Origin: Streptomyces catenulae
GTDB taxonomy: Bacteria; Actinomycetota; Actinomycetes; Streptomycetales; Streptomycetaceae
Reading direction: 5' to 3'
NCBI RefSeq assembly: GCF_000718015.1
Contig: NZ_JODY01000003.1
Coordinates: forward strand, 1-64,000
DNA length: 64,000 nucleotides
Positions within the stretch are counted from its first letter, which is position 1. Every line of letters begins with the position of its first letter. Positions 19,521 to 42,950 of the stretch are shown here, in pieces. The translations under genes were made by a program, and so were the position numbers. The notes under the pieces are model-generated. The model did no database searches. It saw nothing but the letters and a program-made list of their open reading frames with translations, and was not told the origin of the DNA.

Positions 19521-19826
19521 CTACCCCGCGGCCGTCTCCCGGTGGGCCCGTAGCGCCCGGGAGAAGAGGTCGCGGTCCTGGCCCAGGACGAAGGCGGTGA
19601 CGCCGTCGGCCCGCCACTCCCGGCGGCGTTCCTCGGTGGTGGCCATCGCGCAGAACGGCACACCGTGCCGGGCGCAGGCCGCGCGCAGGGTGTTCACCGC
19701 CTCCCGGACCCGGGGGTGGCGCACCTGCCAGGGCACGCCGTACGACTGCGACAGGTCGCCCGGCCCGGGCAGTACGAGGTCGATGCCGCCGCCGGCTTCC
19801 GCTTGACCTCGTCGGGGCGCAGCGCC
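19521..19826 (-). pseudogene. C-terminal remnant of an HpcH/HpaI-aldolase-type (SbnG-like) citrate synthase
   Basis: An open frame of about 100 codons starting right after the decarboxylase stop and ending TAG at 19521. It contains GGGIDLVLPGPGDLSQSYGV, VRHPRVREAVNTLRAACARHG and PFCAMATTEE, the last third of the HpcH/HpaI aldolase fold, to which the staphyloferrin B citrate synthase SbnG belongs (about 255 residues). The first 150 or so residues, including the metal- and substrate-binding N-terminal part, are absent. An ATG overlapping the decarboxylase stop (19830-19828) is in a different frame, as if a coupled start codon remained after an internal deletion. The position after an SbnH-like gene supports SbnG origin. 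Non-functional as it stands. Confidence 0.7.
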
Positions 19827-21041
19827 TCATGCCTCCCCGCCGGAGGTGACGAAGTGGAAGCCGGGGCGCGGATGCATCAGGAAGTCGTGGTGCGAGATGT
19901 TCCAGGCGTACGCCCCGGCCAGGCCGAACGCCACCCGGTCACCGGCGCGCAGCCCCGGCGCCGCCACCCCGCGGGCCAGCAGGTCCTTCGGGGTGCACAA
20001 CTGGCCGGTGAGGGTGATCCGGTCGCCCCGGGCGGCGGGCCGCGGCCACGGGTGCGGCCACGGCGCGTCGGACGGCAGCACGGTGCAGGGCTGGTCGTGG
20101 CCCTTGGTCGCGGGGGTGCGCAGATGGTGGGTGCCGCCGCGCACCACCGCGAACTCCTCGCCGTGGCTGGCCTTCACGTCCAGCACCTCCGTCGCGTACC
20201 AGCCGCAGTACGCGGTCAGCGCGCGGCCCGGTTCGATCCGCAGCGTCAGTTCCGGGTGGGCGCCCGCGAGTCGGCCCAGCCCCCCGCCGTACGTCTGCCA
20301 GGCGAAGCGTTCCCCGGGCGCCCCGTAGTCGACGGCCATACCGCCGCCGACGACGACCTCGGCGAGCGGGACGCCGTGCCGGGCGGCGAGCGCCGCCGCC
20401 CAGGTGACGATCGCGGTGGCCACCGCCAGCTGCTCGGGCGCCCGCAGACCGCTCGCCAGATGGGCGTGGACGCCGCGCAGTTCCAGCTGCGGCAGGGAGG
20501 CCACCGCCTCGACCAGGGCGTCCGCCTCGGCGGGGTCCGCGCCGAACGGGGTGGGGCGGCCGCCCATCGCCAGCGACACCCCGTCCAGGGCGTCGCCGTC
20601 CACCGGCAGGTTGAACCGCAGCAGCACCGCGATCCGCCGCCCCGGGGCGTGCCGGGCGGCGAGCGCACCGAGCATCCGCAGCTCGTGGCCGGACTCCACA
20701 TGGAAGCGCGCCACGCCCAGCTCCAGCGCCCGGACCAGCTCCGCGGGCGTCTTGCCGGGGCCGCCGAACGCCAGCGGCGCGTCCGGCACCGCCCCGTGCA
20801 CATGGGCGAGTTCACCGCCGGACGACACCTCGTAGCCGTCGACGTGCGGGCGCAGCGCCGTCAGGAGCCGCGGTTCCGGGTTGGCCTTCGCCGCGTAGTA
20901 CAGCTCGACGCGGGGCGGCAGGGCGGCGCGGACCCGGGCGGCGTGGGTGGCGAGCGCCGTCAGGTCGTAGACGTAGGCGGGCAGGGCGTCCGGCGGCAGC
21001 GTGGCGATACGGGCGCGGACGGCGGGGGTGGGGTCGGTCAC
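19827..21041 (-). CDS. PLP-dependent decarboxylase of siderophore synthesis (SbnH-like)
   Basis: A 404-residue fold-type III (alanine-racemase barrel, DAPDC/ODC-like) decarboxylase. The PLP lysine is in YYAAKANPEPRLL near residue 45; GGGMAVDYG, RIEPGRALTAYCGWYATEV and the C-terminal GAYAWNISHHDFLMHPRPGF are visible. The last is typical of SbnH, which decarboxylates the citryl-diaminopropionate intermediate of staphyloferrin B. It starts GTG, overlapping the stop of the synthetase gene upstream (GTGA). In this operon it should decarboxylate either an amino acid building block or a citryl-amino-acid intermediate; which one is unknown. Length and motifs look intact. Confidence 0.86.
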   Translation of the reverse strand: MTDPTPAVRARIATLPPDALPAYVYDLTALATHAARVRAALPPRVELYYAAKANPEPRLLTALRPHVDGYEVSSGGELAHVHGAVPDAPLAFGGPGKTPAELVRALELGVARFHVESGHELRMLGALAARHAPGRRIAVLLRFNLPVDGDALDGVSLAMGGRPTPFGADPAEADALVEAVASLPQLELRGVHAHLASGLRAPEQLAVATAIVTWAAALAARHGVPLAEVVVGGGMAVDYGAPGERFAWQTYGGGLGRLAGAHPELTLRIEPGRALTAYCGWYATEVLDVKASHGEEFAVVRGGTHHLRTPATKGHDQPCTVLPSDAPWPHPWPRPAARGDRITLTGQLCTPKDLLARGVAAPGLRAGDRVAFGLAGAYAWNISHHDFLMHPRPGFHFVTSGGEA

Positions 21042-22804
21042 GGGGCGTTCCGGGGGGTGGTGCCGGCGCCGGTGAGGACGGATTCGGCGAGCGGGGAGGG
21101 CAGCCGGACGTATCCGGCGTCCCGGTCGGCCTTGCGCTCCCAGCGGGTGAGCAGATTGGCCTTGGCGGGCAGCGGGACCCCGGCCAGCAGCGCGGCCAGC
21201 CGCGGCGGGCAGCCGTACCGCTCGGCGTGCGACGCCAGCGTGGCGCGGACCCGCGCCCACAGCGCCGCCTCGGTGCCGGGGTGCAGATCGGCGAGGGCGG
21301 CGAGGAGTTCGGCGACGTGGTTGACGAGCAGGCAGTACACGACGCGGTCCCAGCCGCGCTGCGCGTCGTACGTCAGGGGCCCGGCGACCTCGGGCGGCAG
21401 CGCGGCGAGGGTGGCGGTGTGGTGTTCGGGGACGAGCTTGGTGCCCTCCAGGTCGCGGAAGAGGACCTGCGCGGGCATCCCGTCGCCGTCCACGCAGATC
21501 AGCACGTTCTGCAGATGCGGTTCGAGGACGAGTCCGTGGTCGAAGTAGGCGGCGAGGACCGGCGGGATCAGCAGGTCGAGGTAGGCGGCCCACCAGGCCA
21601 GCGCCTCGGCGGGGCCGCGTCCGGCGGGCAGACGGGAGACGTGCGCCGGGCTGGTTGGGTACTCGTCGGCGACGGCACCGGCCAGCAGCGGGGTGGTGCC
21701 GGGCAGCAGCCGCCGCGACAGCCCCTCGCGGACGATCACCCCGAACCCCTCGAAGAGCGCGGTGTCCGGCGTGCCGTCCGGGCCGGGCAGCGCCACGCTG
21801 CGGTAGGCCGGTTCGCGGAGCACGGCGCTGCCGGGGAAGCGGGTGGCCAGCTCGTCGAGGGTGGGGGCGAGCAGCCGGGTGAGGGCGACCGCGCCGGAGA
21901 GTTCGTAGGTGGCGTTCTTCCGCAGGCAGTTGGTGATCCGCACGTTCAGGCTGAACTTCAGGAATGTGTCGGGGGTGTGCAGGGTGCGCACCGAGGCGGT
22001 CGCGGTGAACGGGGTGGAGCCGGTGCCCAGGACGCGCAGGTCGCCGCGGTCGACGGCGGCGCGGAGCACCGGGTTGTCGCGGAGCAGGGCGTACTGCCAG
22101 GGGTGGGCGGGGAGCAGGCGGTAGCCGTCGGGGACGTCGGCGAGCGCGTCCAGCGGGGCGGCGGCGCCGTCGGCGGCGGTCTCCTGCGCCAGGAGGTCCT
22201 CGCGGACGGCGAGGTGCAGCAGCCCGAAGCGGCCGCCGGTCTCCGGCGCGTACGTCCGCCAGGCCGCCGGGTCGCCGGTGCGGGCCTTGGGGGTGGGGTG
22301 GAAGCGGTGGCCGAAGAGGAGGGCCTGTTCGGAGGCGACATAGGCGCCGGTCCACTCCGGGGCACCGGCGGGCACCGGCGGCTGCGGCAGCGGCCGGGCG
22401 GCGAGGGCTCCGGCCAGCGCCCGGTGGCCGGAGGCGAACTGGTCGAGGAACTCGTCGTTGTCGACGCCGGTGCGCAGCGCCAGCTCGGTGTGGACGTACT
22501 CGGCCAGGCGCCGCGGGCCGATCTCGCGCCAGCCGTCGCCGTCCCGGGCGGTGACCGGGCCGGTGAAGCGGTGCGCGCCCAGCAGCGAGGTGCGGCGCAG
22601 CGCGACCCGCAGCAGCACCCCGCGGCGCGGCAGCCGGAGCAGCAGATGGCCGCGGTCGACGGCGGTCTGGTGCTCGGGTCCGGAGACCTCGCGCAGCAGG
22701 CAGTTGAGGAGGGTGTGGGCCGCGGCGTGGTCCGCGGTGGGCAGGGGGCCGGGGGAGGCGGCGGGCACGGTCGTGGGACCGGCGGGGTTGGTGAGCGGGG
22801 GCAT
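21038..22804 (-). CDS. IucA/IucC-family siderophore synthetase (first of two)
   Basis: NRPS-independent siderophore (NIS) synthetase, 588 residues, normal length. It adenylates a carboxylate such as citrate and condenses it with an amine or alcohol. Family motifs in order: HPTPKARTG, LLPAHPWQYALL, the ATP/citrate-binding KFSLNVRITNCLRKNA (mid-protein), LEPHLQNVLICVDG and FRDLEGTKL, then the C-terminal IucC/FhuF-like LPAKANLLTRW. It starts ATG overlapping the stop of the MFS gene and ends overlapping the decarboxylase start, so production is coupled. It differs clearly from the second synthetase (24039), implying two distinct condensation steps. Confidence 0.93.
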   Translation of the reverse strand: MPPLTNPAGPTTVPAASPGPLPTADHAAAHTLLNCLLREVSGPEHQTAVDRGHLLLRLPRRGVLLRVALRRTSLLGAHRFTGPVTARDGDGWREIGPRRLAEYVHTELALRTGVDNDEFLDQFASGHRALAGALAARPLPQPPVPAGAPEWTGAYVASEQALLFGHRFHPTPKARTGDPAAWRTYAPETGGRFGLLHLAVREDLLAQETAADGAAAPLDALADVPDGYRLLPAHPWQYALLRDNPVLRAAVDRGDLRVLGTGSTPFTATASVRTLHTPDTFLKFSLNVRITNCLRKNATYELSGAVALTRLLAPTLDELATRFPGSAVLREPAYRSVALPGPDGTPDTALFEGFGVIVREGLSRRLLPGTTPLLAGAVADEYPTSPAHVSRLPAGRGPAEALAWWAAYLDLLIPPVLAAYFDHGLVLEPHLQNVLICVDGDGMPAQVLFRDLEGTKLVPEHHTATLAALPPEVAGPLTYDAQRGWDRVVYCLLVNHVAELLAALADLHPGTEAALWARVRATLASHAERYGCPPRLAALLAGVPLPAKANLLTRWERKADRDAGYVRLPSPLAESVLTGAGTTPRNAP

Positions 22805-24042
22805 CACAGGCTCCTGCGGAGGCGGGGACGGCGGATGAGGGGGAGGGCGCAGGCGAACACCGTGGCCAGGGCGAGGGCGGTGCCGATGAGCAGCGGCGCG
22901 GACGGCCCGAACCAGGCGTTGCCGGCCGCGGCGGCCAGACCGGCGGCGACCGCACCGGCCTTGGAGAAGAATTCGATGGAGCCGAAGAGCCCGCCGGGCG
23001 CCCGGCCCGCGGCGCAGTCGGCGGCCAGCACCGACAGGCCGACCAGGCCCAGCGTCAGCCCGGCGCCCAGCACCAGCCGGACGGCGGCGAACCCCGCGAG
23101 CGAGGTGGCGGCGGCGTGCCCGGCGGACCCGGCGGCTGTGCAGGCGAAGCCGAGCACCAGGCCGGGGCGGGGGCGGCGTCGGCAGAAGCGGTGCGCGGCC
23201 ACCGCGCCGACCAGGTAACACATGTGCGGCAGCGCGAACAGCGCACCGGAGGTCACCGGTCCGGTGCCCGGCAACCGCTCCTCGACGAGGGAGAGCAGAT
23301 AGGGGAAGGAGATCACCGTCGAGAGGACGAAGACGAACTCCAGGGCGTAGAGGGAGCGCAGGGCGCCGGGGGCGGCGACCGCGGGGGCGGCGCCCACAGC
23401 GGTATCGGGCCCGTCGTCCCCGGCGGGGGTGTCGGCCGGTGCGGCGGTGCGCGGCGGCTCCGGCAGCGCCGCCAGCATCCCGGCGGCGGCCAGCGGCAAC
23501 ACCGCGAGCAGCGCGTACTGCCGGTGCGGGGAGAGCCACGGTGTCAGCGCGCCGACGACGACGGGCGCGCAGACCAGCGCGGCGCGGGCGCTGCCCTGCA
23601 TCAGCGTCAGCGCCCGGGACAGCTCCGCGCCCTCCAGCGTCGCGCCGAGATAGCCGTTGGACGCGGCGAAGGTGCCGCCCAGCACGCCCTGGAGGACCAG
23701 CGCCGCGGCGAACAGCTCCAGCGAGTCGGCGAACCCGGCCAGCAGAAACGCCGCGGCCAGCCCCAACTGCGCCCGCAGCAGCAGCCGTTTGCGGCCGTAG
23801 CGGTCGGCGAGGCGGCCCCACAGCGGGGCGCCCACCGCGCCGAAGACGGTGGGGACGACGTAGAGCAGCCCGGCCCAGCGGGCGGCGCCCTCGCCCAGCT
23901 CCGGCAGGATCGCGGTGAGGTACGGCGGCAGGCCCAGCGCGGCGAACGACGCCACGAAGTAGCACCCGGCCACGGCGTGGACCTGGCGGCGGCCCGGCCG
24001 GGCGGGCGCCGGGGCGGCCGGGGCCGGGGCGGAGAGCGTCAC
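22804..24042 (-). CDS. MFS transporter, probable siderophore exporter
   Basis: A 412-residue major facilitator with about 12 hydrophobic segments and the loop 2-3 motif A GRLADRYGRKRLLL near residue 80. The central loop (about residues 195-225) is Ala/Pro/Asp-rich. It lies between the two NIS synthetases, as SbnD does in the staphyloferrin B operon, so export of the finished siderophore is the likely job. GTG at 24042 overlaps the upstream stop (GTGA) and its own stop overlaps the next ATG. Substrate is inferred from context only. Confidence 0.88.
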   Translation of the reverse strand: MTLSAPAPAAPAPARPGRRQVHAVAGCYFVASFAALGLPPYLTAILPELGEGAARWAGLLYVVPTVFGAVGAPLWGRLADRYGRKRLLLRAQLGLAAAFLLAGFADSLELFAAALVLQGVLGGTFAASNGYLGATLEGAELSRALTLMQGSARAALVCAPVVVGALTPWLSPHRQYALLAVLPLAAAGMLAALPEPPRTAAPADTPAGDDGPDTAVGAAPAVAAPGALRSLYALEFVFVLSTVISFPYLLSLVEERLPGTGPVTSGALFALPHMCYLVGAVAAHRFCRRRPRPGLVLGFACTAAGSAGHAAATSLAGFAAVRLVLGAGLTLGLVGLSVLAADCAAGRAPGGLFGSIEFFSKAGAVAAGLAAAAGNAWFGPSAPLLIGTALALATVFACALPLIRRPRLRRSL

Positions 24043-25838
24043 CGCGGATCACCGCCGGGCAGCAGGTAGTTGGGCCCCTCGGTGTAGTACTTGTTGATGT
24101 CGGCGGCGCCGGAGCGTTCCTTGGAGAGCAGCGTCCCGGCGCTGACCATCGCCTTCACCGGCAGCGTCGGCGCCTCCAGCACCCGGGCCCGCAGCACCGC
24201 GCCGGGCGTGCCGGGCGCGGTGCCCTGCCGGTCGGCCGCCTCGGTCAGCCGGTCCCGTATCAGGTCCAGCAGGCGCGGCAGCGGGGCGCGGCCGGTGCGG
24301 GCCAGCCCGAACGCGTACGAGGCGGCGCAGAGGTGGACGGTGATGGTGGTGAAGACGGCGGCGAGGGCGGCTTCGTCGTAGGTGAAGATCCGCGGGTCGT
24401 CGAAGTCGGCGAGGCCCGGCGTGGCGTCGCCCAGGCGCTCCCGCATCCGGCCCGGGTGCAGCCGCGGCGCGTCGTTGTCCTTGAAGAGCAGCCGCAGCCG
24501 GGTGGGCCCGCCGTCGGGCCGGTCCAGCGCCACCGAGACGTTCTGCTGGTGCGACTCCAGCGCGATGCCGTAGCCGAAGAGGGTGGCCTGCCAGTCCAGG
24601 AGCAGTGCGAGGACCGCGTCGAGCAGGGCGAGCGGATCGCCGCCGTGGAAGCGGTCGGCGAGGTGGTCGAGGACGGAGCCGCCGCCGGGCGCCGGGGCGA
24701 GCAGCGCGGCCAGCGGCACCACGCAGCTGTCGTCCAGCCCGGCCGGGTAGCGGCGGCAGAGCACCGCCAGCATCTCGTGTCCGGCGTGCGCGTACACCGT
24801 CTCGTCGGCCTGCAGTATCCGTCCGGCGAAGCGCGGCTCGCGGGCGAGGACCTGGTCGAGGAGGTGCTGTGCGGCGGCGCCGTCGACGAGGGTGCGGGGC
24901 TTGATGGTGCGCCGGTTGCGCAGGCCCAGGGTGGCGGTGGCCAGCGGGAGCTTGAGGTGGAGCAGCGGGTCGTCGGCCACCGCCACCGTCCGCATCGACA
25001 GCGTCGGGACGGCGTCGAGGTACGGCCGCTCCGCGAGGACCGCCCGCTCGGTCAGCCCCCGGTCGCGCAGCGCCTGCACCAGCGGGGTGCCGGTGCTCAG
25101 CGGGTGGACGGGCAGCACGAAATGGCTGGCGTCCAGGTGCTCCAGGCCCACCGCGGCGGCCGTCGGCAGACACCCGGCCAGCGCGCCCGGGGCGCCCGCG
25201 ACGTCCACCGCCTCCCGGGGCAGCGCCAGCCAGCGCAGCGCGAAGCGCGGATGGAACTCCGGTGCGTACGAGCGGAGCTGCTCCTCGGTCAGGCCGGAGC
25301 GGCCCCGGGAGGTCGGGTAGACGGGGTGGTCCAGACGGGCGGCGAGGGTGTCGTACGCCAGGCTCGCGGCGGGGCCCGTCCAGTGCGCCGGATCCGCGCC
25401 GTGCCGGGCGGTGAGCGCCGCCTCCACCGTGTGCCGGGTGCGGGTGTGCAGCCGCAGGGTGGCGAGGGTCTGGTGGCACTCCTCGGCGAAGGCGTCGTGG
25501 CCGCCATGGTCGACCGGGTCGGCGTGGGCGCGCAGCGCGCCGAGCGCCGCGCCGAGGGTGTCGAGGCGGGCGCCGTCGGCCTCCCGGACCAGCAGCGGCA
25601 GCCGGGCGGCGTCCGTGCTCTGGTAGCCGTCGCCGGTCACCGGCAGCAGCAGCGCCGGGGCCGCGCCGTCGGCGGGCAGCCGCAGCCACCGGCCGCCGGG
25701 GCGCACCAGCGGCGTGGTGCGGGTGCGCAGCCCGGCGACGTCCTCGCGCAGCAGGGCGCTCAGCACCCGCAGCAGCAGCGCGCCCTCGTCGTCGGCGTCC
25801 CCGGCGGTGTCCGGCGTGGTGGCGGTGGCGGTGGTCAC
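24039..25838 (-). CDS. IucA/IucC-family siderophore synthetase (second of two)
   Basis: NIS synthetase of 599 residues. Motifs: DHPVYPTSRGRSGL near residue 175 (HP..K/SRxG nucleotide loop), LKLPLATATLGLRNRRTIKPRTLVDGA, a central ALESHQQNVSVAL, LFKDNDAPRLH, and a C-terminal LPVKAMVSAGTL. The sequence is far from the first synthetase and its ESHQQN/KDND variants fit a different NIS type (SbnE/AcsD-like side of the family). GTG at 25838 overlaps the ATP-grasp stop. No sign of truncation. The order of the two condensations and their substrates cannot be set from sequence. Confidence 0.93.
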   Translation of the reverse strand: MTTATATTPDTAGDADDEGALLLRVLSALLREDVAGLRTRTTPLVRPGGRWLRLPADGAAPALLLPVTGDGYQSTDAARLPLLVREADGARLDTLGAALGALRAHADPVDHGGHDAFAEECHQTLATLRLHTRTRHTVEAALTARHGADPAHWTGPAASLAYDTLAARLDHPVYPTSRGRSGLTEEQLRSYAPEFHPRFALRWLALPREAVDVAGAPGALAGCLPTAAAVGLEHLDASHFVLPVHPLSTGTPLVQALRDRGLTERAVLAERPYLDAVPTLSMRTVAVADDPLLHLKLPLATATLGLRNRRTIKPRTLVDGAAAQHLLDQVLAREPRFAGRILQADETVYAHAGHEMLAVLCRRYPAGLDDSCVVPLAALLAPAPGGGSVLDHLADRFHGGDPLALLDAVLALLLDWQATLFGYGIALESHQQNVSVALDRPDGGPTRLRLLFKDNDAPRLHPGRMRERLGDATPGLADFDDPRIFTYDEAALAAVFTTITVHLCAASYAFGLARTGRAPLPRLLDLIRDRLTEAADRQGTAPGTPGAVLRARVLEAPTLPVKAMVSAGTLLSKERSGAADINKYYTEGPNYLLPGGDPR

Positions 25839-27025
25839 GCGGTGATCTCCCAGCGTCCGTCGGCGAGGAAGGCGTCCGTGGCCCGGACGACGGCGTCCCG
25901 GTCGTCGCCGGTGGCCCGGATCACGCCGAGGTAGTCACGGTTGGTGTGGTGGTGCGGCCGGGTGGTGCCGACGGCGCGCAGCGGGCGGTAGGCGAGGTGG
26001 ACGCCGTCGGCGGTGCGGTCGGTGGCGGCGGGCGCGGCGGTCAGCGTCCCGGCGCGGTCGGCGAGGGCATAGACGACGCGGGCGGCGCGGTCGGTGCGGG
26101 TGCCGAGGTCGGCGGGGAGCGGCTCGCCGAGGTGGGTGCGGAGGATGAGGGCGAAGAGCGGGACGCCCAGGACGTCGGCGAGTACCTGGTCGCACTGGTC
26201 GCCGATGGCACGGTAGTTGACCTCGATGAGCCGGGCCCGGCCCTGGTGCACCACGAACTCGGTGTGACAGGCGCCGAACCCGACGCCCAGCGCGTCGAGT
26301 TGGGCCAGCACCTGCGCGGTGACCGGCTCCGGTTGGGCGGCCACGAAGTCGTGCTGCGCCTCGATGAAGGCGGGTGGGGCGGAGACGGTGGTGCGGAAGC
26401 CGCCCAGGACGTGGCGGCAGTGGCCGTCGCCCAGCGTCTCCAGTGTGTACAACTGCCCGAGCAGGAACTCCTCGGCGAGCAGCGGGGCGTCCGGGCGGCG
26501 GCCGCGGATCGCGGTGGCGTGCGCCACCAGCTCGTCCGCGTCCCGGGCCAGCAGCACGTCCTCGCTGGCCACGCCCTCGCGCGGTTTGACGACGCACGGG
26601 TAGGGGAGCGCGGCACCGGCGAGGGCGGACGGGTCCTGGCCCGCGGGGAGTTCGGTGGCGTGGACGGTGTCGGCGCCGCGGGCGGCGAGGTGGCGGCGGA
26701 GCTCGGCCTTGTTCTTGGCCCGCAGCGTGGCCCGCCAGTCCTTGCCGGGCAGCCCGAAGTAGGCGGCGGCCAGCGCGGTCTGCGTCTGGAGATGGTCGCT
26801 GTTGGTGAAGACGGCGTCGGCCCGGTGGTGGGTGGCGATCCGCCCGATGACGGCGGCGACATCGGTGACCTCGCAGGCCAGGACCTCGACGCCGGGGCAG
26901 GCGGCCCGGTGGTCGTCCGGGTGGTCGGTCAGCACGGTGACGTCGAGGCCGAGCGCGGCGGCGGCGGGGAGGAAGCCGTCGGTGACCGAGTCGGTGGGGT
27001 TGCGGGCGAGCAGGTACATCCGCAT
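25835..27025 (-). CDS. ATP-grasp ligase in the siderophore operon
   Basis: A 396-residue ATP-grasp enzyme: N-terminal Rossmann-like domain (MRMYLLARNPTDSVTDGF), then the grasp fold with YPCVVKPREGVASEDVLL (about residues 140-157), LLAEEFLLGQLYTLETL and the metal site RARLIEVNYRAIGDQ. Such enzymes form an amide by way of an acyl phosphate. Staphyloferrin B operons have no such gene; here it may join an amino acid to the citrate backbone or prepare an amine precursor. The start is the ATG at 27025 with AAGGGG upstream; a second ATG two codons later is possible. The gene appears intact. Confidence 0.87.
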   Translation of the reverse strand: MRMYLLARNPTDSVTDGFLPAAAALGLDVTVLTDHPDDHRAACPGVEVLACEVTDVAAVIGRIATHHRADAVFTNSDHLQTQTALAAAYFGLPGKDWRATLRAKNKAELRRHLAARGADTVHATELPAGQDPSALAGAALPYPCVVKPREGVASEDVLLARDADELVAHATAIRGRRPDAPLLAEEFLLGQLYTLETLGDGHCRHVLGGFRTTVSAPPAFIEAQHDFVAAQPEPVTAQVLAQLDALGVGFGACHTEFVVHQGRARLIEVNYRAIGDQCDQVLADVLGVPLFALILRTHLGEPLPADLGTRTDRAARVVYALADRAGTLTAAPAATDRTADGVHLAYRPLRAVGTTRPHHHTNRDYLGVIRATGDDRDAVVRATDAFLADGRWEITA

Positions 27026-27108
27026 GAGCGGGAACCCCTTCAGGGTCGGGGGCGGTGCGGGGGAGGGGAGCGGGCGTTCCGGAGACGTGAACCGCTCGCC
27101 CCGGTGGA

Positions 27109-27771
27109 TCACTTGGCGGGCAGCGGTACGCCCGCGGCCTTCGCCACGTCGGCGAACATGTGCTCGGCCGCCTGGATACCGATGCCGGACATCCAGGTCT
27201 CGTCCGGCACCTCGAAGACCTTGCCGTGCTTCACGGCGGGCAGGCTCTTCCGGACCGGATTGGAGGTGACGTCCTCGCGCCGGGTCTTCTCCGGCACGTC
27301 CGCGACGGTGACGAGGACCAGGGTGCCGTGGTTCTTCCTGCGGATGGCCTCGCCCAGGTGGTGGGCGCGCTCCCGGTAGCTCGCCATCGCCGCGTCGGCC
27401 TTCTTCTCCAGGCCGGGCTCCGGCAGTGGCCCGGCGTCGGTGACCCCGCCGATCTCCGGCTTCAGGTAGGTGGGGAAGCCGCCCTCGGTCCTCATGTGCG
27501 GCGAGACCGCGCCGACCGGGTCGACGCCGAGCAGCGTGACGTCGTCCAGCTCCCCGGTGTCCGGCACCACGACCCGCTTGGGCTTCGACGGGACCGTCAC
27601 CTCCGCCATCGCGGTCCTGATCGTACGGGGGAAGGCGCCGCCCGCGGTGTCCTTCGCCCCCGCGCCGCCGGAGCCGCCGCCGCACGCGGTGAGCGAGGCG
27701 GCACCCAGGACGGTGGCGAGCAGCGCGGCGGTGAACCGGCGACGGCCGCGCGGTACGGATCTGATGCCCAT
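27109..27771 (-). CDS. Iron-siderophore binding lipoprotein, short form with apparent internal deletions
   Basis: Starts ATG at 27771. It has a lipoprotein signal (RRRFTAALLATVLGAASLTAC, lipid Cys near residue 30) and a FecB/FhuD-like beginning (VPSKPKRVVVPDTGELDDVTLLGVDPVGAVSP), and ends like the family (SLPAVKHGKVFEVPDETWMSGIGIQAAEHM). It has 220 residues, whereas relatives have about 320-340. Two stretches normally present are missing: after PEPGLE (about 45 residues, the LKPDLIL part) and after AIRRKN (about 60 residues of the C-lobe). Both gaps keep the frame. It would deliver ferric siderophore to an ABC importer, but as shortened it is probably unable to fold normally. Confidence 0.75.
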   Translation of the reverse strand: MGIRSVPRGRRRFTAALLATVLGAASLTACGGGSGGAGAKDTAGGAFPRTIRTAMAEVTVPSKPKRVVVPDTGELDDVTLLGVDPVGAVSPHMRTEGGFPTYLKPEIGGVTDAGPLPEPGLEKKADAAMASYRERAHHLGEAIRRKNHGTLVLVTVADVPEKTRREDVTSNPVRKSLPAVKHGKVFEVPDETWMSGIGIQAAEHMFADVAKAAGVPLPAK

Positions 27772-27820
27772 GAGTGGTGTCCTCCTCGGTCGGCGGTGTA
27801 CGGGGTGCGGGGCGGGCGGG

Positions 27821-28138
27821 TCAGGCGGTGCCGGTGCCGCGGCGGGCGGCCCGGCCCGGCGGGACGACCAGCGGGGTGCCGGTCTCCGGGTCGGGCACCA
27901 CCCGGCACTCCATGCCGAACACCGACCGGACCAGCTCCGCGTCGAGCACGTCGGCGGGGGCGCCGGACGAGGCGAGGCGGCCGTCCTTGAGGACCACGAG
28001 ATGGTCGGCGTAGCGGGCCGCCTGACCGAGGTCGTGCAGGACCCTCACCACGGTCCGGCCCGCCTCGGCGTGCGGTTCGGCGACGAGATCGAGGACATCG
28101 AGCTGGTGGCGCAGGTCCAGGAAGGTGGTCGGCTCGCC
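27821..28138 (-). pseudogene. C-terminal fragment of a FecE-type iron-siderophore ABC ATPase
   Basis: About 105 codons beginning EPTTFLDLRHQLDVLDLV (Walker B glutamate and D-loop), followed by RTVVRVLHDLGQAARYADHLVVLKDGR (H-loop) and the usual FecE C-terminus ending at 27821. Walker A, the Q-loop and the signature motif are missing. Upstream of EPTT the reading frame runs into permease-derived DNA in another frame. Without an ATP-binding loop it cannot be an active ATPase. Confidence 0.8.
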
Positions 28139-28710
28139 GGTATCACCGTCGACGTCCAGGAGAGCAGCACCGGTTGGCGCACCGTGCCGCCGAGCGCGAG
28201 CCGGACGGGATCGAGGTCCCCGGCGCGCCGGGCGAGGGCCCGGGCGAAGAGCGCGGCTGCCGCGGCGCCCGCGAAGGCGAACCAGACGTACCGGCCGGGC
28301 CGGGTGAGAGGGGGCGCGTGGACGGCGGTGACGACGGCGGAGCCCGCACCGGCGTTGATGCCGAGAGTGGTGGGGGAGGCCAGGGGGTTGCGGGTGCTGC
28401 CCTGGACGACGGCTCCGGCGACGCCGAGCGCCGCGCCGACCGCGAGCCCCACCAGGGTGCGCGGCAGCCGCAGTCCGGTGATCACCAGGGCGTCGCGGCC
28501 GTGGGCGGTGCCGGTCAGGGCGTCCAGCACGGTGGAGAGCGGCACGGAACGGGTGCCCCGGGCGAGGCCGAGGGCGGCGCAGAGTGCCGGCGCGGCGAGC
28601 CCGGCGGCCGCTAACGGCAGCCGACGCAGCAGCGGCGGCGGCAGGGCCCGCGCGGACCCCGAACGGGTCACCGTCGCAGGGGGTTTGGTCGTCGACACGC
28701 GTCGTGACAT
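28139..28710 (-). pseudogene. N-terminal fragment of a FecCD-type siderophore permease
   Basis: Begins ATG at 28710 (MSRRVSTTK; a GTG at 28698 is also possible). It has the FecCD marks VPLSTVLDAL, RLPRTLVGLAVGAALGVAGAVVQGSTRNPLASPTTLGINAGA and DLDPVRLALGGT. After about 190 of 340 residues the homology stops near 28140-28180 and the frame continues through the ATPase fragment to a stop near 28045. The second half of this permease, any second permease and the first half of the ATPase appear to be lost in one deletion. It is the first gene after the iron box. Confidence 0.8.
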
Positions 28711-28728
28711 TAGGTTAGGCAAACCTAA
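28710..28728 (-). promoter_or_regulatory. Iron box (DmdR1/IdeR operator)
   Basis: TTAGGTTAGGCAAACCTAA, differing at one position from the actinobacterial iron-box consensus TTAGGTTAGGCTAACCTAA. It lies directly in front of the minus-strand siderophore operon, touching the first ATG. By established knowledge DmdR1/IdeR binds here with Fe2+ and represses under iron sufficiency. Confidence 0.92.
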
Positions 28729-28881
28729 AGATGCAAGCGGCGGGCCGGGGATCCGGGGATACGTCCGCTTCTGCGCCACAGTCGCCCCACCAGCACCTCC
28801 GACCCCACCCCCGATTCCCGGCCCGCCGCAACGCGAAGGCGGCCGCCGGTACGGAACCGACGGCCGCCCGAGAAGGGAGGA

Positions 28882-30492
28882 TCAGTGGCCGAACGACCGC
28901 TCGAACCGCTGGAAGGCGCCCTCCTGACGCCACTCCGCGGCCGCCTTCGGGCTGGAGTCGAGCAGTCGGCGGCACGCCGCCCCCGGCGCGGGGCTGCCGG
29001 GCCGCACCCCGCGGCAGGCGTCGACGGTGCGGTAGCCGTCACGGGTGGGGTTGCCCCGCCACAGATCGGCACCTTGCAGGAAGCCGTACTCCAACGACGC
29101 CCGGGCGAGGTCCTTCAGCTCCGGGTACGACAGACCGTAGGTACGGGCGGCGTAGGCGTACTCGTGGCTGATGTCGGTGCGGCTGATGCCCGGGTCGTCG
29201 GTGGACAGCACCACGGGCACACCGAAGGCGCGGTACGTCTGGAAGGGGTGCTCCGCACCGCGGACGCCGAGGATCTGGGAGTTGCTGGTCAGCGGGACCT
29301 CCACGGCGGTCTCCCGGGCGGCCATGGTGCGCGCCGTGCGCTGCCAGTTGTCCTCGTGGACGAGGTCCACGCCGTGGCCGATACGGTCGGCGTGCGCGAC
29401 GTCGACCGCCTCCTGGATGTGGAACTTCAGCGCCTCCGGCTTGACCAGACCGGGCCACAACTCACCGGCGTGCAGCGTGACATGGGCCTTGGGGTAGACC
29501 GTGCGCAGATACTTCAGCATGCGCATCTGCAGACGGTAGTCGCGCACCGCCGTCTCCCCGTCCTCCGGCTGGACGAGGTTGATCGCGACGAACCGCCGGT
29601 CGCGCTCGGCCAGCCGCAGCCCGACGGCCATCTGGGTGAAGACCCGCTCCGGCGCACTGCCCCGGGAGACCTGGGAGATCCAGCGGACGGGCAGTCGGCA
29701 GCCGGGCTCGGCGCGGTCGGTGCCGCAGTGCGCGGTGGTGCGGAACTCCTCGTCCGTGGCGTCCGCCTCCCGCCGCGCCTCCGCGACGACGCGGTCGAGT
29801 CGGCCACCGGCCACCAACTTGTGGTGGAGCGCGGCGAAGTCGTCGTCCCAGCCGACCGCGTCGGCCAGCTTCTTCGCCCCGTCGGACGCGGGCGTGACCA
29901 TCGTCTCCAGGTAGAACTGGTGCTGCGCGGCGGCGGTGTTGGCCACCTGGGCGAGCTGCTTGCCGCGGTGGCGCCAGGTCACCTCGCCGAACTTGCCGAA
30001 GGCGTCGAAGAAGTGGTCGTGGCCGTTGCCGTCGGCGGGGAAGTCCTGCATGGACCAGGCGCGTACGAGGGCGTCGTGGAACGCGCGGTCGTGGCGGGCG
30101 TCGGCGGCGGGGCGGGTGCCCGCCTTGCAGGGTGCGGTGACGGCGGTCATCGTGGCGGTTTCGATGCAGAGCCCGTCCTCGGCCGCCTGCGCGATGAGGT
30201 ACTCGGGCGTGACCGCGCCGGAGAGGTGGTTGTGCAGGTCACCGCCCTTGGGGAGCCGTTTGAAGAAGGACTGCAGGGCACGCGGGTCGTGGCGGATGGA
30301 CGCCAGATAGGCGTTGGTTCCCCACTCCGCCGCGGTCGCCGGGCGGAGGGCGGGGGCCGCGGCGCGGCCGCTGCCCGCGGGGGACGGGTCGGCGTGGGCG
30401 ACGGGACCGGCGGTCACCGTGGCCACCAGGGCGAGGACGCCGAGTCCGGCGACGGCAGGGGTGCGGGGCCGGAACCGGCCCGGAGTATTCAC
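28882..30492 (-). CDS. Secreted adenosine-deaminase-like enzyme
   Basis: About 536 residues with a Sec-type signal peptide (RFRPRTPAVAGLGVLALVATVTAGPVAHA, cleavage near residue 35). The amidohydrolase core has the adenosine deaminase metal site: GDLHNHLSG, HAGELW, DRIGHGVDL and LSTDDPGIS. Insertions and length fit the secreted ADGF-like or extracellular bacterial group rather than the 340-residue cytosolic enzyme; it likely deaminates extracellular adenosine or related purines. Start GTG at 30492 was preferred because GGAG lies eight bases upstream; a GTG at 30501 is an alternative. Same strand as the siderophore operon but before its iron box, so it is an independent unit. Confidence 0.88.
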   Translation of the reverse strand: MNTPGRFRPRTPAVAGLGVLALVATVTAGPVAHADPSPAGSGRAAAPALRPATAAEWGTNAYLASIRHDPRALQSFFKRLPKGGDLHNHLSGAVTPEYLIAQAAEDGLCIETATMTAVTAPCKAGTRPAADARHDRAFHDALVRAWSMQDFPADGNGHDHFFDAFGKFGEVTWRHRGKQLAQVANTAAAQHQFYLETMVTPASDGAKKLADAVGWDDDFAALHHKLVAGGRLDRVVAEARREADATDEEFRTTAHCGTDRAEPGCRLPVRWISQVSRGSAPERVFTQMAVGLRLAERDRRFVAINLVQPEDGETAVRDYRLQMRMLKYLRTVYPKAHVTLHAGELWPGLVKPEALKFHIQEAVDVAHADRIGHGVDLVHEDNWQRTARTMAARETAVEVPLTSNSQILGVRGAEHPFQTYRAFGVPVVLSTDDPGISRTDISHEYAYAARTYGLSYPELKDLARASLEYGFLQGADLWRGNPTRDGYRTVDACRGVRPGSPAPGAACRRLLDSSPKAAAEWRQEGAFQRFERSFGH

Positions 30493-30621
30493 AGGAGTCA
30501 CTCCGGCATGATTGTGGCCCGACGCCCCGTACGTCCCCGAGCTGCCGTTCCATCACTCGTGTGGGTGATAGCGAGCGGCCCCGCCCCCGGAGGGACGGGG
30601 CCGCCGCGGAACGGTCCGGAT

Positions 30622-32580
30622 TCAGCCGCGGGACGCCTTCGCCGCGACATCCTCCCGGTCCGGCTCCGTACGGGCGGCGGGCACCGGCGCGGAGATCCGC
30701 CCGGTCTCGGCGAGCACCACGATCGCGTCGTCCGCCGCCAGCGAGAGCGGCGCGCTCTTGGGCGGGTTGAGGACGACGCCGTACCCGGGCGGGGTGTCGC
30801 TCTCGCTCGCCCGGCGGTAGCCGATGGCGGTCTCCCCGCGCTGCCGGGCCGCCTCGATGACCGTCGCGAAGTTGGCCGGGGTGTCCGGCGCGAGGTAGCT
30901 ACCGGCGGGCTTGAGGTAGATCTCCGAACCCTCGGGGTCGAAGAGGTCGCTGAAGACGGCGTACAGCTTGCGGTCCTCGACGAGTTGGGTCAGCAGCAGG
31001 CTGATGATCTTGGTGCTGACGATGAAGTCGTCCGCCTTGGTGACCTGCGCGATCTCCCGGTTGGCGTCGCTGTTCATCTCCGTGACGATCGAGTACGGGC
31101 TGCCGGTGCGGGTCGCGATGTCCCGCAGGTGCAGCAGCGTCACCAGGGTGCGGTCGTCGGCACGGTCGGAGCCGATGTCGTCGTCGGTCAGCACGATGAT
31201 GTGCCGGTAGCGGTCGAGCCCCAGCGCCTCCAGCGACGGGCGGTGCGTCGGCTCGCAGCGGCGGAAGCCGACGGCGAGGTTCTCCAGCCCCTCCCGGGGC
31301 AGCGCCGCGGGTTCACGGGTCGCCGCGATATCGATCACCGAACCGGGCTCCACCAGCCGGTCGAGCAGCGTGATGATCTTCGCCGCACGGGAGTTCCAGC
31401 CGATGACGAGGGTGTGGTCGGGCCTGGACTCGCCGCCGCTGCCGGTGGTCATCGCCGACTCGACGATCTCCGGCCGGGTCTGCGCCCGCCGGATCAGCAG
31501 ATCGTCCTCCGCGACCACCAGGATCTCGTCCCCGTCCGCGATCACCGCCTCCATCGGCGGGTTGACCTGCACCTCCCCGTTCTCCCGGCGCAGCCCGACG
31601 GGCACGCCCAACTCGAACCCGTTGAGCGCCTCACCGTACGTGCCACCCGCCAGGGGGCCCGCCGCGTACGGGTAGATCTCGTTGCCCTCGAAGCTGAGCA
31701 GCTCGTTGAAGACGGTCGACAGACCGGACTGCCGGTGCGACTGCACGATCAGCCGTACGGCGATGTCGTCGGCGTCGATGACGAGCGCCGCGTCCCCGGC
31801 CGCCAGCCGCGCCGCCGCCAGGTTCGGCGAACTCTGCACCGCCGCCACGATGTTGGGCCGCCGCCGCTTCCAGACCCGGCTGTTGAGCAGCAGCAACACC
31901 TTGATGACCTCGGTGTCGTTGTCGTCCCCGACCGGCGGCAGCACCATGACGGACTTGGCCGCGTCCAGGCTCACCAACTCCAGGTCCTGCCGCTGCAACG
32001 GGCTCCCGGAGCGGCAGATCACCCGGGTGCGGCCGGTCTCCGGGATCCGGCGGCGGATCTCCTCCTCCATCTTGACCTTGTCCCGGTCGGCGAGGATCAC
32101 CACACACGAGCGCCGCTCGCTCTGATTGGCCTCCACCAGCTCCGCGAGCACCGTGAACACCTGCTCCGACCAGCCCAGCACCACGGTGTGCCCACGCTCG
32201 ACCAGCCGCGACTTCCCCCGCCGCAGCTCCTCGATCCGCGCCTCAAGTCCGGTCGTCAGCACACCGATCAGGGCGCTGACGATGAAGATCCCGCCGATCG
32301 TCACGATCAGCATCAGCCCGAGGAAGACCGGCCCGCCGGTGTCCCCGCCCATCGTCCCGGGGTCGAGCGTGCGCAGCACACTCATCCAGACGACACCGGC
32401 CCAACCGCCGTTCTTCTCGGTGTCCTCGTCGGTGAAGAGCACCACCAGCACGGTCACCGCCGCGATCAGCACCACCGAGGCGAGCCCCAGCCAGCCGATC
32501 AGCGCGGGCGTCCCCCGGTCCATCGTCCCGTCGAACCAGTACCGCAACCGGCCCCGCAGGCCCCGTAGTTTTCTGCCCAC
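30622..32580 (-). CDS. CASTOR/POLLUX-type ion-channel protein
   Basis: A 652-residue membrane protein. Two hydrophobic segments near residues 20-50 and 80-110 flank a pore-like region (WAGVVWMSVLRTLDPGT), followed by two RCK/NAD-binding-like domains (RGHTVVLGWSEQVFTVLAEL from about 130; HTLVIGWNSRAAKIITLLDRL from about 390). This matches the CASTOR/POLLUX/SYM8 family known from plant nuclear membranes, with homologues in streptomycetes. It probably conducts K+ or other cations under RCK control. GTG at 32580 was chosen for its GAGGGAG ribosome site; the frame stays open further upstream without support. Ion and ligand are unknown. Confidence 0.85.
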   Translation of the reverse strand: MGRKLRGLRGRLRYWFDGTMDRGTPALIGWLGLASVVLIAAVTVLVVLFTDEDTEKNGGWAGVVWMSVLRTLDPGTMGGDTGGPVFLGLMLIVTIGGIFIVSALIGVLTTGLEARIEELRRGKSRLVERGHTVVLGWSEQVFTVLAELVEANQSERRSCVVILADRDKVKMEEEIRRRIPETGRTRVICRSGSPLQRQDLELVSLDAAKSVMVLPPVGDDNDTEVIKVLLLLNSRVWKRRRPNIVAAVQSSPNLAAARLAAGDAALVIDADDIAVRLIVQSHRQSGLSTVFNELLSFEGNEIYPYAAGPLAGGTYGEALNGFELGVPVGLRRENGEVQVNPPMEAVIADGDEILVVAEDDLLIRRAQTRPEIVESAMTTGSGGESRPDHTLVIGWNSRAAKIITLLDRLVEPGSVIDIAATREPAALPREGLENLAVGFRRCEPTHRPSLEALGLDRYRHIIVLTDDDIGSDRADDRTLVTLLHLRDIATRTGSPYSIVTEMNSDANREIAQVTKADDFIVSTKIISLLLTQLVEDRKLYAVFSDLFDPEGSEIYLKPAGSYLAPDTPANFATVIEAARQRGETAIGYRRASESDTPPGYGVVLNPPKSAPLSLAADDAIVVLAETGRISAPVPAARTEPDREDVAAKASRG

Positions 32581-32751
32581 CTGAAAAACTCCCTCACCGC
32601 GACCGGCTTCCCCCGCGCTCCGGCACGTCGCCATATTTGAAGATCAGTTAACCCTGAACCCTTACGCGATAAGGAACTTGAGCCTCCGATTGACCCGTTC
32701 GGGGACTTTCGACGAGATCAAGCCAGGCACGGACGAACACGCTTCGGGGAA

Positions 32752-32800
32752 CCGCCACGCCCCCGGGTCCGCGGAGCTGCGGTACCCGGGGGCGTGGCGG
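32752..32800. terminator. Strong terminator after the HTH-MurA gene
   Basis: A perfect 17-bp stem: 32752-32768 (CCGCCACGCCCCCGGGT) with 32784-32800. The 15-base loop can itself pair (CCGC/GCGG). It lies 31 bases beyond the minus-strand stop at 32831. Confidence 0.9.
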
Positions 32801-32830
32801 GGGAGCGCCGGGGTGCGGCGCGTCGGCCGA

Positions 32831-34360
32831 TCAAATATCCCGGAACGTCTCGATCTGGGCTCCGACGGAGTTGAGGCGTTCGGCCAGGTCCTCGTAGCCG
32901 CGGTTGATGACGTAGACGTTGCGGAGGACGGAGGTGCCCTCGGCGGCCATCATGGCGAGGAGGACGACGACGGCGGGGCGCAGGGCCGGGGGGCACATCA
33001 TTTCCGCCGAGCGCCAGCGGGTGGAGCCGTCGACCAGGACGCGGTGCGGGTCGAGCAACTTGACCTGGGCGCCGAGGCGGTTGAGGTCGGTGAGGTAGAT
33101 GGCGCGGTTGTCGTAGACCCAGTCGTGGATCAGGGTCTGGCCCTGTGCGGCGGCGGCGATGGCCGCGAAGAACGGGACGTTGTCGATGTTGAGGCCGGGG
33201 AACGGCATCGGGTGGATCTTGTCCAGCGGTGCCTGGAGTTTGGATGGGCGGACCGTCAGGTCGATCAGCCGGGTGCGGCCGTTGTCGGCCGGGTACTCCG
33301 CGCTGCGCTCGTGGTCGAGGCCCATCTCCTCCAGGACCGCCAGCTCGATCTCCAGGAACTCCACCGGGACGCGCCGGATGGTGAGTTCGGACTCGGTGAC
33401 GACCGCGGCGGCCAGCAGGCTCATCGCCTCGACCGGGTCCTCGGAGGGCGCGTAGTCGACGGTGCGGTCGATGTGGGCGACGCCGTGGACGGTGAGGGTG
33501 GTGGTGCCGACGCCCTCGACCCGTACGCCCAACTGCTCCAGGAAGAAGCAGAGGTCTTGGACCATGTAGTTGGAGGAGGCGTTGCGGATGACGGTGGTGC
33601 CGTCGTGGCGGGCGGCGGCCAGCAGCGCGTTCTCGGTGACGGTGTCGCCGCGTTCGGTCAGGACGATGGCGCGGCGCGGGGTGACGGTGCGGTCGACCTC
33701 GGCGAGGTAGACACCGTCGGTCGCGGTGATCTCCAGCCCGAAGTGGCGCAGCGCCGTCATGTGCGGGGTGACCGTACGGGTGCCGAGATCGCAACCGCCC
33801 GCGTACGGCAGCCGGAAGTGGTCCATGCGGTGCAGCAGCGGGCCGAGGAACATGATGACGCTGCGGGTGCGGCGGGCCGCCTCGTTGTCCATCGAGGCGA
33901 GGTCCAGTTCGGCGGGCGGCACGATCTCCAGGTCGTTGCCGTCGTTGATCCAGCGGGTGCGTACGCCGATGCTGCCCAGGACTTCGAGGATGCGGTAGAC
34001 CTCCTCGATCCGGGCCACCCGGCGCAGGGTGGTGCGGCCCGCGTTGAGGAGTGAGGCGCAGAGCAGCGCCACGCAGGCGTTCTTGCTGGTCTTGACGGCG
34101 ATGGAGCCGGAGAGCCGGCGGCCGCCGACCACGCGCAGGTGCATCGGTCCGGGGAAGCCGAGCGACACGATTTCGCTGTCGAGGGCCTCGCCGATGCGGG
34201 CGATCATCTCAAGGCTGATGTTCTGGTTGCCGCGTTCGATGCGGTTGACCGCGCTCTGGCTGGTGCCGAGAGCGTCGGCGAGCTGCGTCTGTGTCCAACC
34301 GCGGTGCTGTCGGGCGTCACGGATCAGCCGGCCGATGCGTTCGAGGTAGTCGTCTGCCAT
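32831..34360 (-). CDS. HTH-MurA fusion: XRE DNA-binding domain plus enolpyruvyl transferase domain
   Basis: A 509-residue protein. Residues about 5-62 are an XRE helix-turn-helix (RLIRDARQHRGWTQTQLADALGTSQSAVNRIERG). Residues 70-509 are a MurA-type UDP-GlcNAc enolpyruvyl transferase: TSKNACVALL (K93/N94 match MurA K22/N23) and AGGCDLGTR, where C190 matches the catalytic Cys of MurA. MurA makes UDP-GlcNAc-enolpyruvate for peptidoglycan. The fused HTH suggests a regulator that senses the same nucleotide sugar, or an enzyme that controls its own gene. A palindrome 12 bases upstream of the ATG supports DNA binding. A streptomycete-type second MurA; probably not the essential copy. Confidence 0.88.
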   Translation of the reverse strand: MADDYLERIGRLIRDARQHRGWTQTQLADALGTSQSAVNRIERGNQNISLEMIARIGEALDSEIVSLGFPGPMHLRVVGGRRLSGSIAVKTSKNACVALLCASLLNAGRTTLRRVARIEEVYRILEVLGSIGVRTRWINDGNDLEIVPPAELDLASMDNEAARRTRSVIMFLGPLLHRMDHFRLPYAGGCDLGTRTVTPHMTALRHFGLEITATDGVYLAEVDRTVTPRRAIVLTERGDTVTENALLAAARHDGTTVIRNASSNYMVQDLCFFLEQLGVRVEGVGTTTLTVHGVAHIDRTVDYAPSEDPVEAMSLLAAAVVTESELTIRRVPVEFLEIELAVLEEMGLDHERSAEYPADNGRTRLIDLTVRPSKLQAPLDKIHPMPFPGLNIDNVPFFAAIAAAAQGQTLIHDWVYDNRAIYLTDLNRLGAQVKLLDPHRVLVDGSTRWRSAEMMCPPALRPAVVVLLAMMAAEGTSVLRNVYVINRGYEDLAERLNSVGAQIETFRDI

Positions 34361-34371
34361 GACATGACCGT

Positions 34372-34387
34372 ATCTCAGATATGAGAT
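34372..34387. promoter_or_regulatory. Palindromic operator in front of the HTH-MurA gene
   Basis: ATCTCA-GATA-TGAGAT, perfect six-base arms, between the two divergent promoters and 12 bases before the HTH-MurA start. XRE regulators often bind such short palindromes and repress their own gene. Confidence 0.6.
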
Positions 34388-34390
34388 GTG

Positions 34391-34429
34391 TTCATTTTCG
34401 CTAGTTGTTCTACTACTATGCGAATAACT
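34391..34429 (+). promoter_or_regulatory. Promoter and operator of the DUF1648-GntR operon
   Basis: TTCATT (34391-34396), 17 bases, TACTAT (34414-34419) is a plausible -35/-10 pair. AGTTGTTC (34403-34410) and GAATAACT (34422-34429) are inverted copies with one mismatch and flank the -10, fitting autorepression by the YtrA-type GntR protein encoded second in the operon. Confidence 0.55.
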
Positions 34430-34439
34430 GGAGGTTGAC

Positions 34440-35426: not shown

Positions 35427-35786
35427 GTGCTGTTCCGGGTCGACCCCCGCTCCGCCGTGCCGCTCGGTGACCAGATCGCCGCCGCGGTCCGCGGCGCCAT
35501 CGCCGACGGCTCGGTCCGTGCGGGGGAGCGGCTGCCCGCGGGCCGGGAGCTGGCCGCCTCGCTCGGCGTCAACGTCCACACCGTCCTCCGCGGCTACCAG
35601 CGGCTCAAGGAGGAGGGGCTGATCGAACTCCGCCGGGGCCGCGGCGCGGTGGTCACCGGCGCCGCGTCCCCGGCCCGCGCCCGCCTCGGCGAGGCGGCCG
35701 AACACCTCATCGCCCAGGCGCGGCAGCTCGGGCTGACCGACGACGAGATCGTCGGCGTGGTGCGCCAGGGGCTGGCCCCGCGCTGA
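35427..35786 (+). CDS. GntR-family regulator, YtrA subfamily
   Basis: A 119-residue protein starting GTG immediately after the stop of the membrane protein gene (TGAGTG). Residues about 8-78 are a winged helix (PLGDQIAAAVRGAIADGSVRAGERLPAGRELAASLGVNVHTVLRGYQRLKEEGLIELRRGRGAVV); the short C-terminal part of about 35 residues is the YtrA-type dimerisation helix without a ligand domain. Such proteins usually repress their own operon, matching the inverted repeat around the -10 box upstream of 34440. The inducer is unknown. Confidence 0.9.
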   Translation: MLFRVDPRSAVPLGDQIAAAVRGAIADGSVRAGERLPAGRELAASLGVNVHTVLRGYQRLKEEGLIELRRGRGAVVTGAASPARARLGEAAEHLIAQARQLGLTDDEIVGVVRQGLAPR

Positions 35787-35814
35787 CCCGCCCGTACGGT
35801 CACCGGTCCCGAGG

Positions 35815-36321: not shown

Positions 36322-36576
36322 GGGTCCCCCCGTTCCGGCCCGGTCCCGGCGCGCCGCGGGCGCGGCGCCCGGCCGGGCAGCGGCCCGAACCTACCGCCCG
36401 TACCGCGCCCCTGTCCGGCGGATGCGCGGCAGGGCGGGCGGCCAGGGGGGCGACCCGAACAGCCCCGTCTGCGCGCGCGGACCCGGTCGCGGGCCTACGT
36501 TCGTCCTCGCGGCGGGAGGCGCGATGCGGTATCGGGCCCGCCGGGGCATGACCAGGTCGCGGCGATGTACTAGAGT

Positions 36577-36594
36577 TATCTCGACATCGAGATA
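36577..36594. promoter_or_regulatory. Perfect 18-bp palindrome upstream of aconitase (TamR-like site)
   Basis: TATCTCGA-CA-TCGAGATA. As I recall, the MarR-family regulator TamR of S. coelicolor controls the aconitase gene through a palindrome of this kind and responds to citrate and aconitate. The site is about 130 bases before the acnA start. Confidence 0.6.
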
Positions 36595-36623
36595 TCTGCC
36601 CAGAGGCGTACCGCTGCCGCGCC

Positions 36624-39442
<2,819 letters not shown>

Positions 39443-39476
39443 TCCGGGACCCGGCCGCCTGACGGCCGGAAACGCC

Positions 39477-39516: not shown

Positions 39517-39525
39517 GCGTGTCGG

Positions 39526-42930: not shown

Positions 42931-42950
42931 GCGAACCCTCTCAACGTGGT

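Follow-up and report, generated by a model that had tools for sequence, protein, structure and literature searches.

A predicted vibrioferrin-type siderophore operon with a broken importer in Streptomyces catenulae

The operon at positions 19,521 to 28,728 of the 64,000-nt stretch of Streptomyces catenulae DNA analyzed here (the window) is very probably of the vibrioferrin type, i.e., a pvsABCDE-like operon with an iron box, and is predicted to make vibrioferrin or a close analogue of it. As an operon it is ordinary and of a known kind; the more interesting part, and the one worth following, is the loss of its importer.

The host DNA is rich in GC (72% over the whole window and 76% in the operon), and the closest named relatives of the window DNA are Streptomyces. 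An element at 28710–28728, which we take to be a DmdR/DtxR-type operator (iron box), is immediately followed by the first start codons of the operon and abuts the first possible ATG. It has one mismatch in 19 positions to the consensus, with a mean of 0.00 in 100 shuffles, which bears out the near-perfect iron box of the preliminary description. With such an operator present, the operon is putatively iron-controlled. Among 80 related loci, an iron box near a cluster gene was found in only 25, even when the pattern was allowed up to three substitutions. The next gene upstream of the iron box, on the operon strand (28882–30501, minus), is adenosine-deaminase-like with a signal-like N-terminus as judged by eye, and a similar frame adjoins the importer genes in Streptomyces benahoarensis (L179). 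At 32831–34480 on the minus strand, the translation of a 549-aa frame reads as an XRE-type helix-turn-helix-like start followed by a MurA-like enolpyruvyl transferase.

Behind the iron box, on the minus strand, come fragments of a permease and of an ATPase, then a binding protein that is shortened, and then five intact genes, all with open frames. The first of the five, and as previously described the first of the biosynthetic genes, encodes an ATP-grasp ligase in the PvsA position (25835–27025, minus, 396 aa), in which 0 of 112 near-invariant positions are changed. It is followed on the same strand by NIS synthetase 1 (NIS-1) in the PvsB position (24039–25838, 599 aa), for which SbnC is the closest NCBIfam model at a score far below the cut-off, a predicted MFS exporter in the PvsC position (22804–24042, 412 aa), NIS synthetase 2 (NIS-2) in the PvsD position (21038–22804, 588 aa) and a PLP-dependent decarboxylase in the PvsE position (19827–21041, 404 aa). 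The two IucA/IucC synthetases, the MFS gene between them and the SbnH-like PLP decarboxylase of the preliminary description are thus all present as open frames. It had also described GTGA/ATGA coupling throughout; the genes do overlap at all five junctions from the ATP-grasp gene through the SbnG remnant (three GTGA and one ATGA), but the overlap between the MFS gene and NIS-2 is TGATG. Gene-family models placed none of the five intact proteins in a named siderophore family above cut-off, and a megablast search of the operon against plasmids matched five records (two from Embleya and one each from Streptomyces, Nonomuraea and Caballeronia), none over more than 80% of the query.

The five genes match pvsABCDE gene for gene, in the same order and on one strand, so that the set of enzyme and transport genes and their arrangement are common to S. 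catenulae and to Vibrio parahaemolyticus and its relatives (for the pvsABCDE naming and an accession table for V. parahaemolyticus, see the excerpted parts of PMC5812596). Four named clusters from plasmid records were used for comparison, those of Vibrio fortis, Cupriavidus necator H16, Pantoea soli and Rhodococcus sp. WAY2. The pvs gene order recurs in V. fortis, C. necator and Rhodococcus, and likewise in P. soli with an SbnG-like gene placed first; the P. soli ATP-grasp enzyme is annotated as 'siderophore biosynthesis protein PvsA'. By blastp, the S. catenulae proteins are 37, 38, 36, 31 and 42% identical to A to E of V. fortis, with B matched over 72% of its length. NIS-1 matched B best and NIS-2 matched D best in all four comparison clusters, and A, C and E had one counterpart each. 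A protein cluster named for V. parahaemolyticus (P0140; 1,719 member sequences) shares 72% identity with the V. fortis ATP-grasp protein and 36% with that of S. catenulae. The S. catenulae protein is also 38% and 42% identical to proteins named PvsA by their sources, from Pseudomonas psychrophila and Rothia nasimurium, respectively. The presence of an ATP-grasp gene is explained by this comparison, because the gene occupies the PvsA position of a pvs-type operon, and the suggestion that its product takes part in siderophore assembly fits this placement.

The likeness has limits. TonB receptor genes stand beside the Vibrio cluster, whereas S. catenulae has remnants of a Gram-positive-type ABC importer instead, together with an SbnG-like remnant and a DmdR/DtxR-type iron box. 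The identity to the V. fortis proteins is 31–42%, and there is therefore room for other building blocks. The clusters on C. necator plasmid pHG1 and Rhodococcus plasmid pRWAY01 come closer, as six genes and their order are shared, including the SbnG-like gene, which is intact in both but broken in S. catenulae. An identical cluster with a known product, which the preliminary description had named as a ground for refuting its reading, exists in that of vibrioferrin, with the identity applying to the gene set only.

Similar clusters have been described from Streptomyces. In the excerpted parts of PMC9394381, avsABCD of Streptomyces avermitilis is called a 'vibrioferrin-like polyhydroxycarboxylate siderophore' cluster. 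Its three 'siderophore synthetase components' and a diaminopimelate-decarboxylase-like enzyme fit an A-B-D-E core, a likeness drawn from the gene descriptions given there. Four genes are listed for avsABCD in that excerpt, whereas S. catenulae adds the MFS gene, the importer remnants and the SbnG remnant. A siderophore region 18% similar to vibrioferrin appears in a table excerpted from PMC7385001, which we take to be that of S. tunisialbus, and the vibrioferrin gene paper is cited in the excerpted text of PMC9022529, which deals with Streptomyces sp. GQFP, the source of one of the loci compared below (L018). Within a partial coverage of the literature, which makes this a weak negative, no paper was found that joins SbnG to vibrioferrin, or pvsA with ATP-grasp and vibrioferrin.

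A pathway can be proposed from the closest relatives of the enzymes. The best PDB match of NIS-2 is AcsD (E 1.8e-66; next enzyme IucA, 1.7e-29), and that of the PLP enzyme among solved structures is 6knh (E 3.2e-77), presumably SbnH. The ATP-grasp protein matches an L-amino acid ligase best (E 7.2e-11), and NIS-1 has only weak solved relatives (best E 5.3e-10). AcsD joins citrate and serine, SbnH decarboxylates a citryl amino acid, and SbnC uses 2-oxoglutarate. Because of this chemistry in the closest relatives, we propose that the AcsD-like NIS-2 would join citrate to serine to give citryl-serine, that the PLP enzyme would decarboxylate the seryl part to an ethanolamine part, that the ATP-grasp ligase would add alanine and that NIS-1 would add 2-oxoglutarate, after which the MFS protein may export the product, vibrioferrin or a close analogue. 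As the gene for a dedicated SbnG-like enzyme is broken, citrate would be drawn from central metabolism. In the excerpted section 3.8 of PMC5577590 the four building blocks are identical and the specific functions of the Pvs enzymes are still given as proposals; the steps are assigned otherwise there, with PvsE acting on free serine and PvsA as the ester former.

The preliminary description had read the operon as staphyloferrin-B-like and nearly in sbn order; the order is, however, that of pvsABCDE. The sbn locus contains SbnA and SbnB, three NIS synthetases, an SbnH-like decarboxylase, an SbnG-like citrate synthase and an MFS exporter. The S. catenulae operon has the NIS chemistry, the decarboxylase, the SbnG-like gene and the MFS exporter in common with it, but is without SbnA and SbnB, has two NIS synthetases rather than three and adds the ATP-grasp ligase. 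A staphyloferrin-B-like pathway on the sbn plan, in which the ATP-grasp enzyme replaces the diaminopropionate part, would account for the PLP enzyme being closest to 6knh, for the intact relatives of the SbnG remnant being closest to 4tv5 and for SbnC being the closest NCBIfam model to NIS-1. We nevertheless consider such a pathway very unlikely, as the pvs order is exact, NIS-2 is AcsD-like and the NCBIfam sbn models score far below their cut-offs. Inspection of the operon frames revealed no sbnA- or sbnB-like frame, in line with the earlier statement that diaminopropionate genes are absent. Set against the three NIS synthetases of staphyloferrin B, the operon has two, and the two further IucA_IucC matches in this genome are on another contig. 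SbnG is present only as a frame-shifted remnant. Membership in the staphyloferrin B class was dropped on these three grounds, i.e., no sbnA/sbnB in the operon, two NIS genes and a broken SbnG. The SbnH-like character of the decarboxylase is upheld (263 bits by phmmer); the PvsE-position protein of V. fortis also matches it strongly, at 312 bits by blastp, a score from a different program that is not directly comparable. From the earlier idea of an unusual operon for a related but different carboxylate siderophore, the carboxylate type stands, related to staphyloferrin B but distinct from it, and the word unusual does not, as many Streptomyces carry such operons. Elsewhere in the genome (C39:44066-47642, L182), a second adjacent IucA/IucC pair is 26–33% identical to the NIS proteins of the operon.

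The SbnG-like aldolase/citrate synthase gene at the end of the operon (19521–19829, minus) is a remnant, as previously described, and consists of a short N-terminal piece followed by the C-terminal part in another frame. Roughly 460 bp have been lost relative to the related locus L054, leaving the remainder out of frame, and no second copy was found in the S. catenulae genome. Compared with solved HpcH/HpaI enzymes, the intact SbnG-like protein of Streptomyces chattanoogensis (L006) matches 4tv5 at E 2.3e-65 (next enzyme 1.3e-34) and that of C. necator at 3.7e-66 (next enzyme 9.5e-43). We assume that 4tv5 is SbnG, and the alignments show that the S. chattanoogensis protein retains the glutamate that sets 4tv5 apart from 4tv6. 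Being closest to 4tv5 by a wide margin, the intact relatives are SbnG-type proteins and putative citrate synthases. The S. chattanoogensis protein is 71% identical to that of Rhodococcus, 51% to that of Cupriavidus and 37% to that of Pantoea. Of the 74 loci with at least 1 kb of sequence beyond the decarboxylase gene, only 7 have an intact SbnG-like gene (four Streptomyces and three Nocardia), and the idea that it is a fixed part of the system was rejected. Its place also differs between clusters, as it stands before and not after the pvs-type genes on the P. soli plasmid (L126).

The preliminary description had overlooked a set of importer remnants, which are found in the stretch from the iron box to the ATP-grasp gene. 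A FecCD permease 1 remnant (28132–28698, minus) comprises the N-terminal part only and is 84% identical over 41% of the intact S. chattanoogensis permease. Permease 2 is gone, and a ferric-siderophore ABC ATPase is left with its C-terminal part only (27821–28126, minus). The ferric-siderophore binding lipoprotein (27109–27771, minus) has two in-frame internal deletions and measures 220 aa compared to 338 aa in S. chattanoogensis. Judged from these sequence remnants, an importer of four genes originally stood at the head of the operon. The nearest relative with comparable DNA, S. benahoarensis (matches of 85–91%), has a complete importer. Compared to it, about 2,030 bp are missing, which covers the end of permease 1, all of permease 2 and the start of the ATPase, and the binding protein lacks two pieces of about 160 and 183 bp with the frame kept. 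The S. catenulae importer is thus predicted to be no longer usable, and any recovery of the iron carrier would go through another system.

The junctions of the deletions in the importer and SbnG genes carry short direct repeats of roughly 3–11 bp. Such repeats, in a draft genome of 90 contigs, could mean that the breaks are assembly errors and that the strain has an intact importer and SbnG. This is extremely unlikely. For the importer, an artefact is disfavored because misassembly would not yield an excess of substitutions, and the remnants show such an excess (43 residue changes vs. 8), some of them at near-invariant positions. The missing SbnG also has no second copy, and no other binding protein above 48% was found.

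The excess was measured by comparing S. catenulae with S. benahoarensis, using S. chattanoogensis as outgroup and leaving out codons in poorly aligned stretches. Residue changes found only in the window and only in the relative numbered 18 and 2 in permease 1, 6 and 2 in the ATPase (not significant alone) and 19 and 4 in the binding protein, compared to 18 and 10 in the ATP-grasp protein, 29 and 22 in NIS-1 and 1 and 11 in the part of the MFS protein that could be compared. When pooled, the importer remnants (43/8) differ from the ATP-grasp protein, NIS-1 and the MFS part (48/43; Fisher p = 0.0002). For the MFS gene, about half of the length was compared, and the count there is skewed in its own right, with most changes on the side of the relative (1 vs. 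11, p = 0.006); with the ATP-grasp protein and NIS-1 alone, the difference from the importer remnants remains (p = 0.003), and the slight window-only surplus in these two is not significant. The S. benahoarensis contig ends in the MFS gene, with no strong match on other contigs, and NIS-2 and the decarboxylase were therefore compared by near-invariant positions only. That test, which left out orthologues below 70% of the query length, below 50% identity or on the other strand, found deviations at 4 of 577 near-invariant positions in the five intact proteins, compared to 10 of 100 for what is left of the binding protein and the permease. The binding protein deviates at 7 of 59 such positions, and as many were found in 1 of 39 other loci. 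From the residue-change and near-invariant-position tests, it seems that the importer decayed for some time while biosynthesis stayed constrained.

Alternatively, the whole operon might be dying, with the importer and SbnG having broken first and biosynthesis merely spared so far, and there would be no product. Four separate deletions within 9 kb are in keeping with such decay, while the 20 kb on the iron-box side (28701–48700) match S. benahoarensis at 92–94% over two long blocks, one of 14.0 kb and one of 6.0 kb; the losses are therefore local on that side. We consider a dying operon rather unlikely, however, since all five biosynthetic and export frames are open, the near-invariant positions deviate far less in their proteins than in the remnants, and window-only changes are not in excess in A, B and the compared part of C.

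The five-gene type is common in Streptomyces. With one genome per species scanned, 287 stretches encode a relative of the ATP-grasp protein, and a decarboxylase match at E <= 1e-60 was found in 132 of 392 Streptomyces genomes, weaker paralogues included. The best 80 of the 287 loci were kept, and gene presence was called by a 60% coverage rule. Among these 80, seven have importer, five genes and SbnG, 29 have the same without SbnG, 30 have A, B, D and E only (three of them with less than 4.5 kb of upstream sequence) and 14 show other patterns, several of which are cut by contig ends. Leaving aside six loci without a usable A-B-D-E set, 74 remain, of which 36 combine a full importer with the exporter, 24 have neither, eight are unscored due to too little upstream sequence for the importer, and six are intermediate or different (L016, L017, L018, L027, L056 and L081). 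A full importer without the exporter occurs in 0 of 36 loci.

By parsimony, the importer requires 14 changes (shuffled mean 20.5, minimum 11) and the exporter 14 (mean 21.8, minimum 16). Importer status follows the tree only loosely; the tree shows no support values, and the changes are counted without direction. Gene fragments, of the permease in L016 and L018 and of the MFS gene in L015, L016 and L056, suggest that the changes were losses. Importer and exporter thus seem to have been lost repeatedly in related loci, while horizontal transfer could lie behind a similar pattern. In Streptomyces sp. GQFP (L018) the importer is broken differently: both permeases (1 and 2) and the ATPase are reduced to fragments, the binding protein is nearly whole, and core and exporter are intact.

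In 16 genomes with importer-less clusters, no binding protein exceeded 49% identity to that of S. chattanoogensis, and 11 of the 16 had no match at E <= 1e-30; three importer-bearing controls had proteins 73, 75 and 100% identical to it, the last being the source of the query. A divergent gene with an FhuF-type 2Fe-2S C-terminus lies beside the cluster in 46 of the 80 loci (e.g., L022:8609-9556). In 16 of 27 importer-less loci, gene calls place it immediately ahead of the ATP-grasp gene, at a median of 292 bp. Its product scores above the Pfam FhuF_C cut-off and below that of NCBIfam (27.9 vs. 63.85 bits). This neighbor may be a sign that uptake and reduction of the ferric complex continue where importer-less loci have it. 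No FhuF-like gene lies beside the cluster in L006–L013, L054 or S. catenulae, where a 47% relative is found elsewhere on the contig. On another contig of S. catenulae (C24) there are genes for two permeases (45 and 37% identity to the S. chattanoogensis proteins) and an ATPase (61%), with one for a binding protein (46%) some 3 kb on; this system could be a substitute importer.

Tentatively, and with somewhat less than even confidence, we suggest that the A, B, D and E core has been kept under selection in Streptomyces after the importer and then the exporter were lost many times independently, with S. catenulae midway, its importer and SbnG decayed but its exporter and core still intact. If true, the product would serve its maker through an unrelated importer, or would do its job without self-uptake. 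The analysis replaces the guess of an unusual staphyloferrin B with a precise prediction, vibrioferrin or a close analogue, for a common Streptomyces operon type. Producers without their own importer would be the reverse of the usual 'cheater', which keeps uptake and drops synthesis, and the pattern seen over the loci compared makes the user of the siderophore a testable question.
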